IMG/VR virus record: IMGVR_UViG_3300022188_000042
Span: 1-29,035 of that record
Reading direction: 5' to 3' (one strand)
Length of the DNA stretch: 29,035 bases
Source of the DNA: a virus
Shown: positions 2,103-28,582 of the stretch, piece by piece
Numbering within the stretch: position 1 is the first letter of the stretch
Layout of the letters: every line of letters begins with the position of its first letter
The notes under the pieces: model-generated
Told to the model about the DNA's origin: nothing
What the model saw: only the letters and a program-made list of their open reading frames with translations
The model's database searches: none
Translations under genes and position numbers: made by a program

Positions 2103-2740
2103 GCGATTTTGAATTTAAAAGTAGGCGCTATAAAATAATTTTACTAGAGAAACTTTTGGGCAGTTTGCCTAAAAATAAAGAGTTATTTAGAAAATATGTT
2201 CAAGAGAAATATTATGGTAATAGCGAGGATTTGACAGATGAGGACCCAGAACAGTTAGATGAACAGGAGATGCAGCAACAAATTGAACAGAAGATGACTC
2301 CAGATGGGGATAATGAGACTGGATTTTACACAGACATTGATGGAGTCTATCTGAAAGCATATCAGATTAAAGGCTTTTTGAAAGAGGCAGGTAACATCCT
2401 AAAAGAGTCTTTAAAAATTAAAAACCTTAGAAGTAAGATAGATAATTATGTTTTTGTAGAACCTGACTGGATATGGTTAAAAGAGAGTCCAGATGGATGC
2501 CTCCAACGCCCGTTAAGAGCAATGACTCCGCAGGGTCCGAGAGTCTCACTCGTCTCCTCTGACTACATTGAACCAATGTCTTTTGAAATTAAGATAACTT
2601 TATTACCACATAAGAAACTTAATTTTAAAGTAATTGAGGCGCTTCTGGATTATGGGAAATTCAAAGGACTAGGGCAATGGCGCAATGCTGGCTATGGGCG
2701 CTTTAAATGGGAGCGTGTAAAGGAAAAGAAGAGTAAATAG
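2099..2740 (+). CDS. unnamed phage protein with RAMP-like glycine-rich C-terminal loop
   Basis: 213 residues. Residues 45-70 are an acidic, Gln-rich linker. The C-terminal two thirds has a lysine-rich helix (about 88-112), an R137-x2-R140 stretch leading to Q-G-P-R148, a beta-rich part, and a glycine-rich loop at 190-201 of the form G-L-G-x-W-R-N-x-G-x-G-R. That loop strongly resembles the G-rich loop of RAMP-fold (Cas5/Cas6/Cas7-type) RNA-binding proteins. No function is established. GAGGAGG lies upstream and the ATG overlaps the previous stop. It is the last gene before the degenerate-repeat block. The resemblance could be convergent. Confidence 0.75.
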   Translation: MSDFEFKSRRYKIILLEKLLGSLPKNKELFRKYVQEKYYGNSEDLTDEDPEQLDEQEMQQQIEQKMTPDGDNETGFYTDIDGVYLKAYQIKGFLKEAGNILKESLKIKNLRSKIDNYVFVEPDWIWLKESPDGCLQRPLRAMTPQGPRVSLVSSDYIEPMSFEIKITLLPHKKLNFKVIEALLDYGKFKGLGQWRNAGYGRFKWERVKEKKSK

Positions 2741-3262
2741 AGCAACGGCTTAGTAAAGATTTGCATAGGCTGGAGACTCCGCAAAGGCAATGAATGGTAA
2801 AGCTTATGCAATGCGATGGTGAGGCAAAGCAGTAGTAAAGCAAAGGCAAAGTTTTGTGTCCTAATGCATGGCAATGGTAGGGCGGGACAGAGAAAGGCAA
2901 GGGCGGAGGACTGCTGGGCAACGACGATGAATTGCACAGTAAAGGCAAAGATTTGTAGAGTAGTGCTGCGCTATGGTAAGGTTTTGTGTCGTAAGGTATA
3001 GCGCTGGCAGGGTGAAGGCGGAGTAGGGCATGGAGGGTAATGCCTTGCATGGACAAGGCAAAGGGTTTGGTAAGGCATGGTAATGTAAGGTGATGGTAAA
3101 GCAAGGCGAGTTGTGGCAAGGCAGAGGTATAGAAAGGCAGAGTGAGGTGAGGGTATAGGTAAAGCAAGGAAAGGCAAAGCAGCACAGCATAAGGCAAAGG
3201 TAGCGTTGCAAAGGCAACGTATAGTATGGATTAGCAACGTTTAGCTTAAAGGAGTTTTTAAA
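2741..3262 (+). repeat. 522-base gene-free block of degenerate AAAGGC / GGTAA words
   Basis: No credible gene lies here. The + strand is purine-rich and built from short variable words of about 5-6 bases such as AAAGGC, GCAAAG, GGTAAG, GCAATGG and ATGGTAA, with about eight AGGCAA cores. C usually follows G and runs of C are rare, while stop codons break all + frames. The minus strand stays open for long distances only because of this bias, giving Leu/Pro/Cys/His-rich translations typical of spurious frames. A ten-base copy (GTTTTGTGTC) recurs exactly at 2851 and 2981. The block ends right at the ribosome binding site of the next gene. Confidence 0.75.
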
Positions 3263-3460
3263 ATGCAAAAATTAAAAAAAATAGTAAACAAAATCAAAGA
3301 ACATGAGCAAGCAATTAGTGAGTTAAGGGTAGAATATTATAAATATGTAAGACCTTGCAATAATACAGATTGTCCTTTTCACACAACTTTTTGGGATGAC
3401 CACTGCTCTTGGACAGATTTTGTAACTGATTGTCCAAACTATAAACCTAAGAAGGAGTAA
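3263..3460 (+). CDS. small Cys/His-containing protein, unknown
   Basis: 65 residues, not recognised. The first half is a charged helix that could coil. The second half holds cysteines in a C-x4-C-x2-H arrangement (about residues 32, 37 and 40), an H-C-x-W unit near 47-50 and a further Cys near 57, compatible with a small metal-binding fold. The ATG has AAAGGAG eight bases upstream, at the exact end of the degenerate-repeat block. The following gene starts one base after its stop. Confidence 0.72.
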   Translation: MQKLKKIVNKIKEHEQAISELRVEYYKYVRPCNNTDCPFHTTFWDDHCSWTDFVTDCPNYKPKKE

Positions 3461-3461
3461 A

Positions 3462-3740
3462 ATGTTTTTATTAAAAGGCACAAAAATAATTAAATACAAG
3501 TTTAAAAAGGCAACGATGGTTATAGAAGAAAATGGCGATTGTTTTATAGTCTATGAAACAGAAGATGGCATCAAAAGAACATTAGTTCTGAGTCGTATAA
3601 AAAAAGTATTTGTCTTTGATTCCAGTACTTTTAATTTACTGGAATTCGTTGAGAACTTTCCAGGCACTATTTACCTTTACGATGTAAACAAAATTGAATT
3701 CAACCCGTATAGTAAGGCAGCTATTTTTACATTGCTATAG
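3462..3740 (+). CDS. beta-rich small protein, unknown
   Basis: 92 residues, not recognised. The sequence alternates hydrophobic and charged residues in short strands, suggesting a small beta-barrel or beta-sandwich with no signal peptide or membrane segment. It begins one base after the previous stop, with AAGGAG overlapping that gene's end. It is the last clear rightward gene before the convergent terminator. Confidence 0.7.
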   Translation: MFLLKGTKIIKYKFKKATMVIEENGDCFIVYETEDGIKRTLVLSRIKKVFVFDSSTFNLLEFVENFPGTIYLYDVNKIEFNPYSKAAIFTLL

Positions 3741-3765
3741 CATAGTGCCGTATAGCTCTGCGGTG

Positions 3766-3812
3766 TCTTGCAAAGGCAAAGAAAGGTAAGGTAAAGCAGC
3801 GTTGTTAAGGTA
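3766..3812 (+). repeat. short second copy of the AAAGGC/GGTAA degenerate-word sequence
   Basis: The gap after the beta-rich protein contains the same vocabulary as the long block at 2741-3262 (GCAAAGGCAAAG, GGTAAGGTAAAGC). It runs straight into a strong TAAGGAGG ribosome binding site and an ATG at 3825. Both blocks therefore sit directly upstream of a ribosome binding site. Confidence 0.55.
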
Positions 3813-3821
3813 AGGAGGTTT

Positions 3822-16926: not shown

Positions 16927-17577
16927 CTATGAGCATTCATATTGAAACCAGAAGTCACCGTCGTCTCCAAGAGCAGGGTCAGGGTCATCAGGAGAGACAA
17001 ATTTACCAGAACTATCCCATTTCTCTGAATTTTCAGAACAATCTACTTTACCATCAATATTCTTATCATATTCAGATTTAAGCATTATATCAGACATATC
17101 ACTTAAAGTTCCAGCTACATCGGCATATTCAGCTTCGTCTACTTTATTATCATTATTCTTATCATACTCAGATTTGAGCATTATATTAGACATATCACTT
17201 AATTTATCAGCAATATGAGCATGATCAGCATAGTCAGCATGGGCAGCCTTCTCAACTTTTTTGTCCTTATCTGGATCATATTCAGATTTGAACATTATAT
17301 CAGACATATCTTTTAATTTATCTGCAATATCAGCATATTCAGCTTTATCTACTTTTCCATCTTTATTTTTATCATACTCAGATTTAAGCATAAAATTAGA
17401 TGTATCTACCCAATTTTCACTACTTCCATCGCCGATATCTATACTTTTTGCTTTGTCTGCATAAGTAGCTTTATCTGCTCTCGTTACTCTTATATCAAAA
17501 TAATTATGTGCAATTTTAACATCTTTTAATTGTGATAATTCAACAAGAGATTTTTCGACTTTTTTAAGTTGACTCAT
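16927..17577 (-). CDS. tail-fibre-like protein with four EF-hand/dockerin-type calcium loops
   Basis: 216 residues. Four copies of S-E-Y-D-x-(N/D)-x-D-x-x-V-(D/E) start at about 66, 98, 136 and 168. The 12-residue loops beginning at D69, D139 and D171 keep the D-x-N-x-D-x-x-V-D-x-x-E ligands; the second (D101) ends in Ala and looks degenerate. They are separated by Ala-Asp-rich spacers (A-D-Y-A-D-H-A) typical of fibre shafts. Calcium likely stiffens the fibre. Its start overlaps the nozzle stop by four bases. Confidence 0.8.
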   Translation of the reverse strand: MSQLKKVEKSLVELSQLKDVKIAHNYFDIRVTRADKATYADKAKSIDIGDGSSENWVDTSNFMLKSEYDKNKDGKVDKAEYADIADKLKDMSDIMFKSEYDPDKDKKVEKAAHADYADHAHIADKLSDMSNIMLKSEYDKNNDNKVDEAEYADVAGTLSDMSDIMLKSEYDKNIDGKVDCSENSEKWDSSGKFVSPDDPDPALGDDGDFWFQYECS

Positions 17578-24902: not shown

Positions 24903-26374
24903 TAAAACCCTCCAAAGTCAAAATTAACGTATTGTCTAGCGTCTGGTGGCAGATTTTGGATATAAAGTTTTCTAGCCTCTTCAGGCGTCATACTTTGCTC
25001 ACCAGTTACTATTCTATTACCTTCACCACCGCCTAACATCGCATAACCAGCAGCGTCAATCACGTGGGAGTAAATATTTTTATCAGGTTTATCTCTATAG
25101 CGCTCATCACCCACTACTTGTAGGCGCTTGTAACAATACCCGCCAGCAAGCCCTTTTCTAGCCATCTTGCATTTAGGCGAGATTATTAGCCCTGGCTTGC
25201 CGTCTATTAAACGGCTCAAAGGCACTGCAATCGCCTCACGCCTAGTTGTCCAATCGTTTGTGGGTGCTGGCACTGCTTGAATGCCCTTAGCGTGAAGTAT
25301 CTGAAAGCAAGTCTTTTCGTCGGTTTGCGCCCGCTGTTGCCCAGCAGGGTCTCCGTATATTTCAAACTTAAAGCCTGGGTATTCACGATGGATTTTATTG
25401 CCTAGCAGTTCAGCAAATCTGAAGATGCCCATATTATCGCTCACCAGCTCATCAAACCAAATCCAACGCCCATTAACAAACCTTTGAGCAAAAAGCGCTG
25501 CTGGGGTAAGCCCAAAGTCAAGCCCTATATAGATGGGCAAATCACGCTCTGGCTTAAGTATTTCATGGCTGCAATGCACGGCATCTACATATTCTGGAAA
25601 GACTGGCTTTCCGTCTATAACAAAGCCGTATTGAGCGCAATAATAGACCCTAATATAATCAGGCGATTTGCCTGCAAGTCTTGTTAAATAGTAATTATGC
25701 CCTTCGTTTAAATTTTCTATATTCTCGGCTTTTGGGTTCGGAATAAACTTGCCGTCCCTTTCTATCAATGCCCCAGGCTGTTTAAAGAACTCCCAACCTT
25801 CTGGGCGCTCTTCCTCTGCAAGTTTGTAAAGCCAATGGTCTTCATCTGGTGGGTTTGTATCAAGCATCACGCCCCGCCATGTGCATCCGCCAATCATCTT
25901 GGACGGATATTGCCCTACTCTATCGCCTAAAGCATCAACAATTGCTTTAGGAACTTCCCTTGCCTCATTTATCCACCCACCAGTTAGCTCCAGAGATAAA
26001 AGTTTTCTAACATCACTTGGTCTATCCAACGCCCTGAAAAGGACTTCCGCCTTTACCTGCGTTCCATCCTGCAAGTAAAAATCAACATAATGAACCATCT
26101 GCTGCCAGTTAAACTTGCCAAAATGTTCCTCTGGAAACCACATCAACCAGGTTTTCAATGTGGTATCACGCAATTCTGGATAGGTATTCCTAACGATAGC
26201 CCATCTACTATGACGGACGCCCTTGAAAGCTCTCTGCTGGCAAGCTCGCCGCATAATCTCCATGCACATAGCGGTGGACTTGCCTGACCTTACGGGTCCA
26301 ATAACGACCCGCATAAAGGCATCGCTTTTATGAAAGCGCTTTAATGTAGGCGTTGGCTTATAATTTATATTCAT
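24902..26374 (-). CDS. terminase large subunit
   Basis: 490 residues. Walker A G-P-V-R-S-G-K-S-T (26-34), a Walker B-like L-S-L-E-L-T-G-G-W-I-N-E-A-R-E near 127-141, and nuclease acidic residues in G-L-D-F-G, Y-G-D-P-A-G and H-V-I-D-A-A-G identify the ATPase and endonuclease of the packaging motor. The start overlaps the preceding PP-loop gene by 17 bases and has only a weak ribosome binding site, so translation is likely coupled. Strong homologue type; no truncation seen. Confidence 0.95.
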   Translation of the reverse strand: MNINYKPTPTLKRFHKSDAFMRVVIGPVRSGKSTAMCMEIMRRACQQRAFKGVRHSRWAIVRNTYPELRDTTLKTWLMWFPEEHFGKFNWQQMVHYVDFYLQDGTQVKAEVLFRALDRPSDVRKLLSLELTGGWINEAREVPKAIVDALGDRVGQYPSKMIGGCTWRGVMLDTNPPDEDHWLYKLAEEERPEGWEFFKQPGALIERDGKFIPNPKAENIENLNEGHNYYLTRLAGKSPDYIRVYYCAQYGFVIDGKPVFPEYVDAVHCSHEILKPERDLPIYIGLDFGLTPAALFAQRFVNGRWIWFDELVSDNMGIFRFAELLGNKIHREYPGFKFEIYGDPAGQQRAQTDEKTCFQILHAKGIQAVPAPTNDWTTRREAIAVPLSRLIDGKPGLIISPKCKMARKGLAGGYCYKRLQVVGDERYRDKPDKNIYSHVIDAAGYAMLGGGEGNRIVTGEQSMTPEEARKLYIQNLPPDARQYVNFDFGGF

Positions 26375-27080
26375 AGCTATGCAGCCAATGGTATCTATTT
26401 TTTATTCTCTGCAAAATATTTTTATCCCTAAAGCTAAAAGTATAACCTGTCTTACTTTTGTTTATTTTTTCCATTTCTAAAAGTTTTAAAAATTTATCTG
26501 GATAATATTTCGCTAAAATTTTAAGGTCTCTTTCAGATTGAAAAGGGCAACACCAACATCCTGCTCTGTTGAACCTATCATATAGCCCATAAAAGTTAAA
26601 ACCTTCAGCTTTACACATAGCTAACGCCATATCATCAGTTATTCCAGCATCAACTAAAGGGTATATCTCTAATGCTTTACGTTTTTTTATCCTTCTTTTT
26701 TCGTTTGCAGTAATACCAATATAAGTCATATACGTTCGTTTTTTAAGGTAGCGTTTAAAAGGCTTAATTTTTAGCCTATCCGAGCACCACCTTTGGGATG
26801 GGCAAGGAAAAAGATAAGGCTGCCCTATATATTTACCTCTAACTCTCTTATATTCTGTCACATAATAAACAAAATCATGCTTTGGTTTTAACACCGTCAC
26901 CCCAAAACCAAAATTTATTCTTGCCCATTCGTCTATATCTTTTATTGTTTTATAAACCTCATCAAACTCTACTCCAGTATCACAAAAAACAATCTCATTA
27001 AGGGGTAACTTTTTCCTTTTAATCATTAATAACATTGCTGTGCTATCTTTTCCTCCTGAAATAGATGCAACATGCCACAT
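26358..27080 (-). CDS. PP-loop (PAPS-reductase-like) phage protein
   Basis: 240 residues from ATG 27080 (a GTG at 27089 is the alternative). S-I-S-G-G-K-D-S near residue 6 is the PP-loop that binds the ATP alpha-phosphate region. Cys pairs in P-C-P-S-Q-R-W-C-S (about 93-99) and G-C-W-C-C-P-F (about 175-180) could hold an Fe-S cluster or act in sulfur chemistry. Similar proteins appear in many phages and are called PAPS reductase-like; activity is uncertain. Lying between the two terminase genes with overlaps on both sides, it is probably made with them. Confidence 0.85.
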   Translation of the reverse strand: MWHVASISGGKDSTAMLLMIKRKKLPLNEIVFCDTGVEFDEVYKTIKDIDEWARINFGFGVTVLKPKHDFVYYVTEYKRVRGKYIGQPYLFPCPSQRWCSDRLKIKPFKRYLKKRTYMTYIGITANEKRRIKKRKALEIYPLVDAGITDDMALAMCKAEGFNFYGLYDRFNRAGCWCCPFQSERDLKILAKYYPDKFLKLLEMEKINKSKTGYTFSFRDKNILQRIKNRYHWLHSYEYKL

Positions 27081-27081
27081 C

Positions 27082-27471
27082 CTAATCACCGTCCAAATTA
27101 AAATTAAAGTTCACGACTCCCTTTCCTTCAAGCTCGTGTTTGTTAACCAATTCGCCTCTCCACTGCAAAATAAGCTTCAGCACTTGCGGATCTCCCTTGC
27201 AAGCCTTAGCGAGCATCGCTTCATAAACTTTGGGCATGTGTTCTTCCATCGCTGCCTTTACATATGCAGAACGGAGTTCCCAAAAGCGCTGTGTGCCGTA
27301 TTTAGCAATAGCAGTTCGGAGAGAAGTATCCTTTAACCCCTGTTCTCTACAAATCTGTCTAAACGACTTTGTCCAGTTCTCTTCTTTTATCAACAGTAAC
27401 ATTAACCGTTTTAGATTTCTCGGCAGTTTGTTTATCTCTTCTAATACTTCATCTTTTGCGGTTATAGCCAT
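27082..27471 (-). CDS. terminase small subunit
   Basis: 129 residues. An N-terminal helix-turn-helix-like part (about 30-60: K-S-F-R-Q-I-C-R-E-Q-G-L-K-D-T-S-L-R) is followed by helices including M-P-K-V-Y-E-A-M-L-A-K-A-C-K-G-D-P-Q-V-L-K, the usual small-terminase core. It recognises the packaging site. It is the first gene of the late operon, and no GGAGG-like site precedes its ATG, unlike most genes here. Confidence 0.8.
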   Translation of the reverse strand: MAITAKDEVLEEINKLPRNLKRLMLLLIKEENWTKSFRQICREQGLKDTSLRTAIAKYGTQRFWELRSAYVKAAMEEHMPKVYEAMLAKACKGDPQVLKLILQWRGELVNKHELEGKGVVNFNFNLDGD

Positions 27472-27673: not shown

Positions 27674-27747
27674 GAAATCCCCTTTAAAACCATCCTTTTT
27701 GTTCTTTCAATCCAGCGTATTTGTTCTAACCTACTGATTTTATTAAG

Positions 27748-27764
27748 TTGGCACGGTAATTGAT
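27748..27764 (+). promoter_or_regulatory. sigma54-like promoter element
   Basis: TTGGCACG (27748-27755), four bases, then TTGAT (27760-27764) matches the sigma54 pattern TGGCACG-N4-TTGCA except that the GC of the -12 element is GA. The start would lie about 12 bases further on, some 30 bases before the ATG at 27805. Two TTTGTTCT copies (27698 and 27720) lie 22 bases apart just upstream. The -12 mismatch lowers confidence. Confidence 0.35.
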
Positions 27765-27804
27765 ATTAATGAGTAAAGCAAAAAAAATAAAAAGGAGGCG
27801 CAAA

Positions 27805-28089
27805 ATGTTAGGACAAGCAAAAAATTTTCAAGAGCTAAAAGGCTTAAACTTAAAATCTGTTATTTATCAGGAAGTAATTTTAAAAGGGGAAGATTACTTC
27901 AACCAAAAGGTAAAGGACGCTCTGGAAGAGCTTAAAAAACATCCACGCTATAGTTCTATAAAATACGTATCTTGGTTCTATCCTTCCCAGTCTTTAGGAA
28001 AAGGGTTAACCGTCATGGAAGTTTATCGTGACGGTAGCGTATCGTTTAATCGTAGGCAAGGGAGATATTATAGTCTGAGAGTGTATTAA
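27805..28089 (+). CDS. small unknown protein, first gene right of the control region
   Basis: 94 residues from the ATG at 27805, chosen because AAAAGGAGG lies just upstream; an ATG at 27769 and a TTG at 27760 have no site. Mixed helix then beta, with a C-terminus rich in Tyr, Arg and Gly (V-Y-R-D-G-S-V-S-F-N-R-R). Not recognised. With the next gene it forms a two-gene rightward unit under the divergent control region. Confidence 0.7.
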   Translation: MLGQAKNFQELKGLNLKSVIYQEVILKGEDYFNQKVKDALEELKKHPRYSSIKYVSWFYPSQSLGKGLTVMEVYRDGSVSFNRRQGRYYSLRVY

Positions 28090-28446: not shown

Positions 28447-28582
28447 ACCTATTGTTTTTCTTTACCCTACTATCTGAGAGCGCCATAATTCCCCTTATTT
28501 TGCATTCAAGTTTCTACTTATATAAAACTACTTAGACCCAGTTTAACCTACCTTAAAAAGCCATTATTAGCCTCTCAGTATA

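Follow-up and report, generated by a model that had tools for sequence, protein, structure and literature searches.

A probable guide-RNA array of the VIPR type beside a RAMP-fold gene in a 29-kb virus record

In a virus sequence of 29,035 nucleotides (IMG/VR record IMGVR_UViG_3300022188_000042, positions 1 to 29,035; this whole stretch is called the window here), a gene at positions 2099–2740 is followed by a half-kilobase block, 2741–3262, that holds no gene. We consider it quite likely that a VIPR-type system lies here, with the block as its guide-RNA (vrRNA) array and the gene as the one encoding its Vipr protein. This view rests on the RAMP fold of the protein, on the linkage of gene and array among 151 relatives, on their shared strand, on a lattice with a step of 5.17 nucleotides (nt) and regularly placed six-nucleotide units, and on homology to the Vipr protein of Escherichia phage SUSP1. 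VIPR systems were first described in a 2026 preprint (bioRxiv 2026.04.26.720920, PMC13142463). As set out in its main text, they pair a phage RAMP protein, Vipr, with vrRNAs built from GGY/NN pentanucleotides; DNA is read non-contiguously by the NN bases, with one base skipped, and rival elements are repressed. The vrRNAs comprise 9–16 YNNGG repeats and a conserved 3' tail, and Vipr is characterized by an RRM core, a G-loop, and a thumb domain that breaks base pairing (PMC13142463).

The block and its lattice

The first-pass annotation of the window had singled out this block as a run of degenerate words without a gene, and the word counts bear this out. On the + strand of 2741–3262, GGYAA occurs 19 times, against 5.3 ± 2.1 (maximum 12) in 1000 dinucleotide shuffles, AAAGGC occurs seven times against 0.85 ± 0.97, and there are 77 repeated 8-mer pairs against 9 ± 4 (shuffle maximum 24). 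None of the 1000 shuffles matched the block on any of these measures, so the word enrichment survives the shuffle test proposed for it. Exact-repeat and tandem-repeat readings were rejected by repeat searches at the usual thresholds, as the annotation had anticipated, and the purine-biased + strand has no open reading frame (ORF) longer than 61 amino acids (aa) within the block. On the minus strand, ORFs of 81, 164, 135, and 88 aa cross it in all three frames; they follow from composition, since TTA, CTA, and TCA are rare on the + strand. A 5-mer model delimits a single continuous stretch at about 2718–3276. Word decoding runs from immediately after the stop codon (2738–2740) to the AAAGGAG ribosome binding site at 3249, ahead of the downstream gene's ATG at 3263, and the block thus ends where the annotation had placed its end.

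Spectral power and word decoding define the array itself at 2741–3250 (+), with 96 words (71 of 5 nt, 21 of 6 nt, two of 4 nt, and two of 7 nt) on the unit G-Y-A-N-N. The words had been described as drifting; the order beneath them is a lattice, with a G spectral power of 27.7 at a period of 5.198 nt, compared with at most 10.3 in 500 shuffles. The 3' end of the array (3207–3250, +) is shared by the three close relatives (AACGTATAGYATGG...AACGTTTA) and is still on the lattice; no fold conserved among those three was found there. A second, shorter array of 13 words precedes the next small ORF at 3741–3815 (+). It corresponds to the shorter relative that had been noticed at 3766–3812, the 5-mer scan gives 3733–3821, and in relative G1 the corresponding array spans 230 nt and has a power of 28.6. 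A longer motif, TTTGTGTCNYRANGYATRG, recurs within arrays, at 2853 and 2983 in the window (130 nt apart), at about 6830 and 6941 in locus L005, and at about 6822 in locus L006. It is possibly a boundary between guide RNAs.

The same rhythm is found in the arrays of relatives. In the blocks, G recurs at lags of 5–6, 10–11, and 15–16 nt, and over 61 arrays the mean period is 5.167 nt (standard deviation 0.025), with coherence in single arrays extending up to 1363 nt. When arrays are folded on this period, G occupies 80% of lattice points and is followed by C or T and then A. In the unit, G reaches 0.87 and the pyrimidine at position 1 reaches 0.75, while positions 3–4 are variable. Across arrays, 6370 of the decoded words are 5 nt long and 1308 are 6 nt long. 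The 6-nt words (GCAANG, with G next) are mostly separated by three to seven fives, with a peak at four to five. Counted in words, sixes are mostly five to seven apart, and 3–4% of them lie at distances of one to three words. The regular recurrence of this unit accounts for the mean step of 5.167 nt. Autocorrelation at lag 31 is 0.316, against 0.094–0.099 in word-permuted or memoryless controls, so simulation and permutation rule out a memoryless mix of 5- and 6-nt words. A locked 31-nt super-repeat of distinct unit types was also rejected, as the spectrum lacks a component at either 31 or 10.33 nt.

Two further properties bear on what kind of element this is. Between homologous arrays, only 17 of 94 gaps are multiples of three, which marks the arrays as non-coding. 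The suggestion of a structured RNA found little to sustain it: Rfam searches of the window, L005, and L006 returned no match, and in folding, natural arrays gain nothing over versions with permuted words (mean z 0.24), but the window block, taken by itself, has a slight advantage over its dinucleotide shuffles (z −2.18).

The RAMP-fold gene and its linkage to arrays

The vipr-like gene (2099–2740, +) encodes a 213-aa protein with the RAMP (Cas7/Csm3) fold and a C-terminal glycine-rich loop, GLGQWRNAGYGRF. Its AlphaFold2 model, built with 62 relatives, has a predicted local distance difference test score (pLDDT) of 86, with low confidence at residues 31–70; prediction from the single sequence reached a pLDDT of only 36. 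The best structural matches in the PDB are type VII Cas7 (8yhd_O, Z 13.6) and Csm3 (6ae2_A, Z 12.2, root-mean-square deviation 2.8; Z 12–13 for Csm3 matches overall), and the Cas7/Csm3 matches cover 140–167 residues. Compared with PDB sequences, the 62-member profile reached type VII Cas7 at E 1.2e-4 and Csm4 at E 0.0044. Pfam, PHROGs, and NCBIfam gave no confident family, with weak RAMP, Cas6, and Csm4 signals. The structure search also matched a phage protein named "Cas system-associated RAMP superfamily protein". In BFVD, the folds of A7WKN2 and A0A0A0P750 (Betalipothrixvirus, Los Azufres archaeal virus 2) match the model at E ~1e-4, and archaeal filamentous viruses may therefore have RAMP-like proteins.

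Comparison with related phages was the check proposed for the block, and it proved informative. Two close relatives (IMGVR_UViG_3300026512_000038 and IMGVR_UViG_3300021505_000003), whose flanking genes are 83–94% identical, have the block in the same position, but its length differs and its words are rearranged. The idea of an unusual diversifying process thus stands in part, in that the words change quickly from one relative to the next. Scanning the virus collection for a word pattern, with 5-mer rescoring, brought out unrelated phages with a similar block, which in L031, L035, and L037 adjoins a homologue of the 2099–2740 gene. In deposited phages with a distant homologue, the adjoining block is clear in MT835520, MT835477, and MT835513 and weaker in Hydrogenobaculum phage 1 and Microcystis phage Mae-JY09. 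In all, 336 relatives of the family were matched in the viral collection. Others lie in prophages or contigs of Clostridia, Coriobacteriales, Gemmatimonadales, Chloroflexi, Omnitrophota, Saccharibacteria, and other groups, and for some viruses of the family the nearest match among bacterial genomes is a Desulfofervidaceae metagenome-assembled genome.

Linkage was assessed in 151 fetched relatives from phages and prophages of many phyla, comprising 80 viral and 71 bacterial-genome loci, and an array was counted if a lattice window with a power of at least 14 lay within 1.3–1.8 kb of the gene. By this measure, 135 of the 151 loci have an array beside the gene. Seventy-five of the 80 viral loci contain a 250-nt window with a power above 15, nearly all at periods of 5.1–5.25 nt (controls: median 2.9, 99th percentile 8.3), and 60 of the 71 independent bacterial-genome loci reach a power of at least 14. 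Arrays are located upstream or downstream of the RAMP gene, and the G lattice and the gene share a strand in 69 of 75 viral and 59 of 60 bacterial-genome cases. The association also holds in the opposite direction: among 65 viral contigs fetched by word pattern, power exceeds 20 only in L055, L031, L037, L062, and L035, all of which carry a Vipr-like gene, while the best of the remainder is 14.2 (median 8.9). The proposal of a replication or recombination site near the exonuclease does not fit these results, as the array is linked to the RAMP gene rather than to the exonuclease and is nearly always on the gene's coding strand. Of the options originally offered, a protein-binding array comes nearest, with the evidence pointing to an RNA array bound by the adjoining RAMP protein.

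The L055 array (600–1445, −) is strongly periodic, with a power of 60 in a 250-nt window and a best period of ~4.9 nt over 845 nt. In it GGCAGGCAGGG recurs at intervals, and the contig also holds a Vipr-like ORF at 1957–2589 (−). This locus is probably another VIPR type.

Early phage genes named from their sequences (repressor, replication, single-stranded DNA-binding, and annealing-type proteins) surround the family, a neighborhood that fits a role in phage conflict without proving it. In the window, an AlpA-type DNA-binding protein is encoded in the same operon at 1739–1930 (+; Pfam PF05930, E 3.7e-12) and is a possible accessory gene. The terminase is nearest those of podovirus-like phages; no DNA similarity to known phages was found, and an exact 23-mer pattern search gave 0 matches. 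Adjoining the terminase, 26358–27089 (−) encodes a protein that contains SGGKDSTAMLLM, a motif seen in PAPS-reductase-type enzymes. A 96-nt tandem duplication with copies 82% identical lies at 17042–17229, inside an ORF at 16927–17577.

Comparison with known systems and rival explanations

The SUSP1 locus provides the closest point of reference. We recovered it independently by profile and lattice scan, without published coordinates: its Vipr gene is at 28474–29061 (−; profile E 9.5e-4, with half the genome searched), and lattice stretches lie on either side of it, at 27711–27980 and 29141–29240. This layout agrees with the preprint, in which vrRNAs flank two genes on both sides. Profile comparison (hhalign) of our family with SUSP1 Vipr gave E 1.7e-6 over 180 columns. 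The preprint assigns SUSP1, with a P. fulva prophage, to type II (PMC13142463). The window shares with type II a single homologous phage RAMP protein of ~200 aa with a C-terminal G-loop, and an adjoining array, up- or downstream on the gene's strand, in which a conserved G/Y scaffold alternates with variable NN. The array consensus is thus related to GGY/NN rather than identical to it. It differs in that the unit is GYA/NN, the array is continuous over ~96 units (up to 1363 nt elsewhere) instead of 9–16 repeats with a tail, and the mean step is 5.17 nt with regular 6-nt units, whereas the SUSP1 step is exactly 5.0 nt. Taken together, homology to SUSP1 Vipr and the exact 5.0-nt step of SUSP1 indicate a VIPR-type locus with a different array grammar. 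Neither a type II array of 9–16 exact pentanucleotides with a conserved 3' tail nor, judging from the Rfam searches, a hammerhead-interspersed array was found here. In L160, a type II hammerhead ribozyme (Rfam RF02276, 48.6 bits) lies at 3458–3523, ~460 nt upstream of the vipr gene, in line with the preprint's arrays that have hammerheads between vrRNAs. The preprint distinguishes seven VIPR types and refers to "staggered arrays with overlapping vrRNAs"; the array in the window could be of that kind. We did not find the 5.17-nt rhythm described in the preprint's main text, and the supplement may hold it.

Other RNA-guided systems are less similar. Backbones of class 1 CRISPR systems (type VII Cas7, Csm3) share the fold and the glycine-rich loop, but they step 6 nt of RNA, their identity to the window protein is ~10–17%, and the window locus has no CRISPR array, Cas5, Cas6, or Cas10. 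No CRISPR-type exact repeats were found at the locus and no Cas effector match among the neighboring genes, where the exonuclease reaches Cas4 only below the cut-off; the repeats and further cas genes that would define a class 1 CRISPR–Cas locus are thus missing. TIGR-Tas (Science 2025, PMC12045711) is likewise described as phage-borne and RNA-guided with a tandem guide array, but the protein here has the RAMP fold.

Several observations weigh against a VIPR-type reading. Homology to SUSP1 Vipr is weak in sequence (23% identity), and the array grammar lacks the exact 5-nt spacing, the 9–16-repeat blocks, and the tail of type II. While the preprint reports a vipr-accessory (vap) gene next to vipr, we found no accessory gene common to most of 144 loci. 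A clear array was not nearby in 5 viral and 11 bacterial loci, some of which are explained by contig ends. The reading also assumes that the array would be transcribed with the operon. Finally, when compared with fetched DNA of phages and hosts (2.8 Mb in all), guide readings yielded no more matches than shuffled guides did, whichever target rule was tried (NN at positions 2–3, 3–4, or 2 and 4; triplets; skips of several lengths; the 6-nt unit treated in two ways). True targets may lie outside the 2.8 Mb examined.

The empty target searches would also be expected if the RAMP protein coated the array RNA for a purpose other than targeting, to form a scaffold, to act as a decoy for class 1 CRISPR subunits of the host, or to autoregulate its operon. 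Tail-less continuous arrays of 300–1360 nt, which exceed the need of one guide, favor such a role. However, positions 3–4 of the unit change faster than the scaffold in homologous arrays (substitution rates of 0.22–0.23, against 0.046 at G), as guides would, and the SUSP1 homologue is a programmable DNA binder (PMC13142463). We regard this explanation as improbable.

Slightly less probable still is that the lattice is a feature of double-stranded DNA, in which a protein contacts G:C pairs each half helical turn within a partition, packaging, or origin filament. It deserves serious consideration because twice 5.167 is 10.33, so that the coherent, non-integer period equals half a turn of B-DNA (10.33/2 bp), with coherence beyond 120 nt. 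Against it, the lattice is nearly always on the gene's coding strand, the 10.33-nt component was not found, and RAMP proteins are RNA-binding backbone subunits. Moreover, the SUSP1 homologue steps exactly 5.0 nt, and copurification of Vipr with its array RNA is reported for that phage (PMC13142463). Functionless low-complexity drift by slippage, to which the indel turnover of words between close relatives might point, is refuted by the linkage and coherence tests: a phase-locked lattice is kept beside one gene family across many phyla and GC contents, and word permutation destroys it.

Implications for VIPR array grammar

If the block is a VIPR-type array, then, by analogy with SUSP1, its RNA would be bound by the adjoining protein and used for DNA targeting. 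Vipr subunits would polymerize on the array RNA, one per GYANN unit, each holding the G (and the Y and A) and leaving the variable bases exposed. Through these bases the ribonucleoprotein would read double-stranded DNA, with one target base skipped per unit as in SUSP1, and genes of competing phages or satellites would be repressed. The regular 6-nt unit probably reflects filament geometry, in which six subunits span 31 nt of RNA and leave roughly one nucleotide spare. Whether this amounts to a second VIPR grammar, with one continuous filament-length RNA of 31 nt per six subunits in place of discrete pentanucleotide blocks, seems to us evenly balanced.

If so, any stretch of the array, or overlapping stretches, could serve as a guide, and the 31/6 rhythm would give the subunit geometry of the filament from sequence, with six subunits per 31 nt of RNA as a structural prediction. 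Such arrays can also be detected simply, by a G power near 5.0–5.2 nt. VIPR systems have been proposed as ancestors of CRISPR, and the family described here is large, with a rhythm that is visible from sequence alone.
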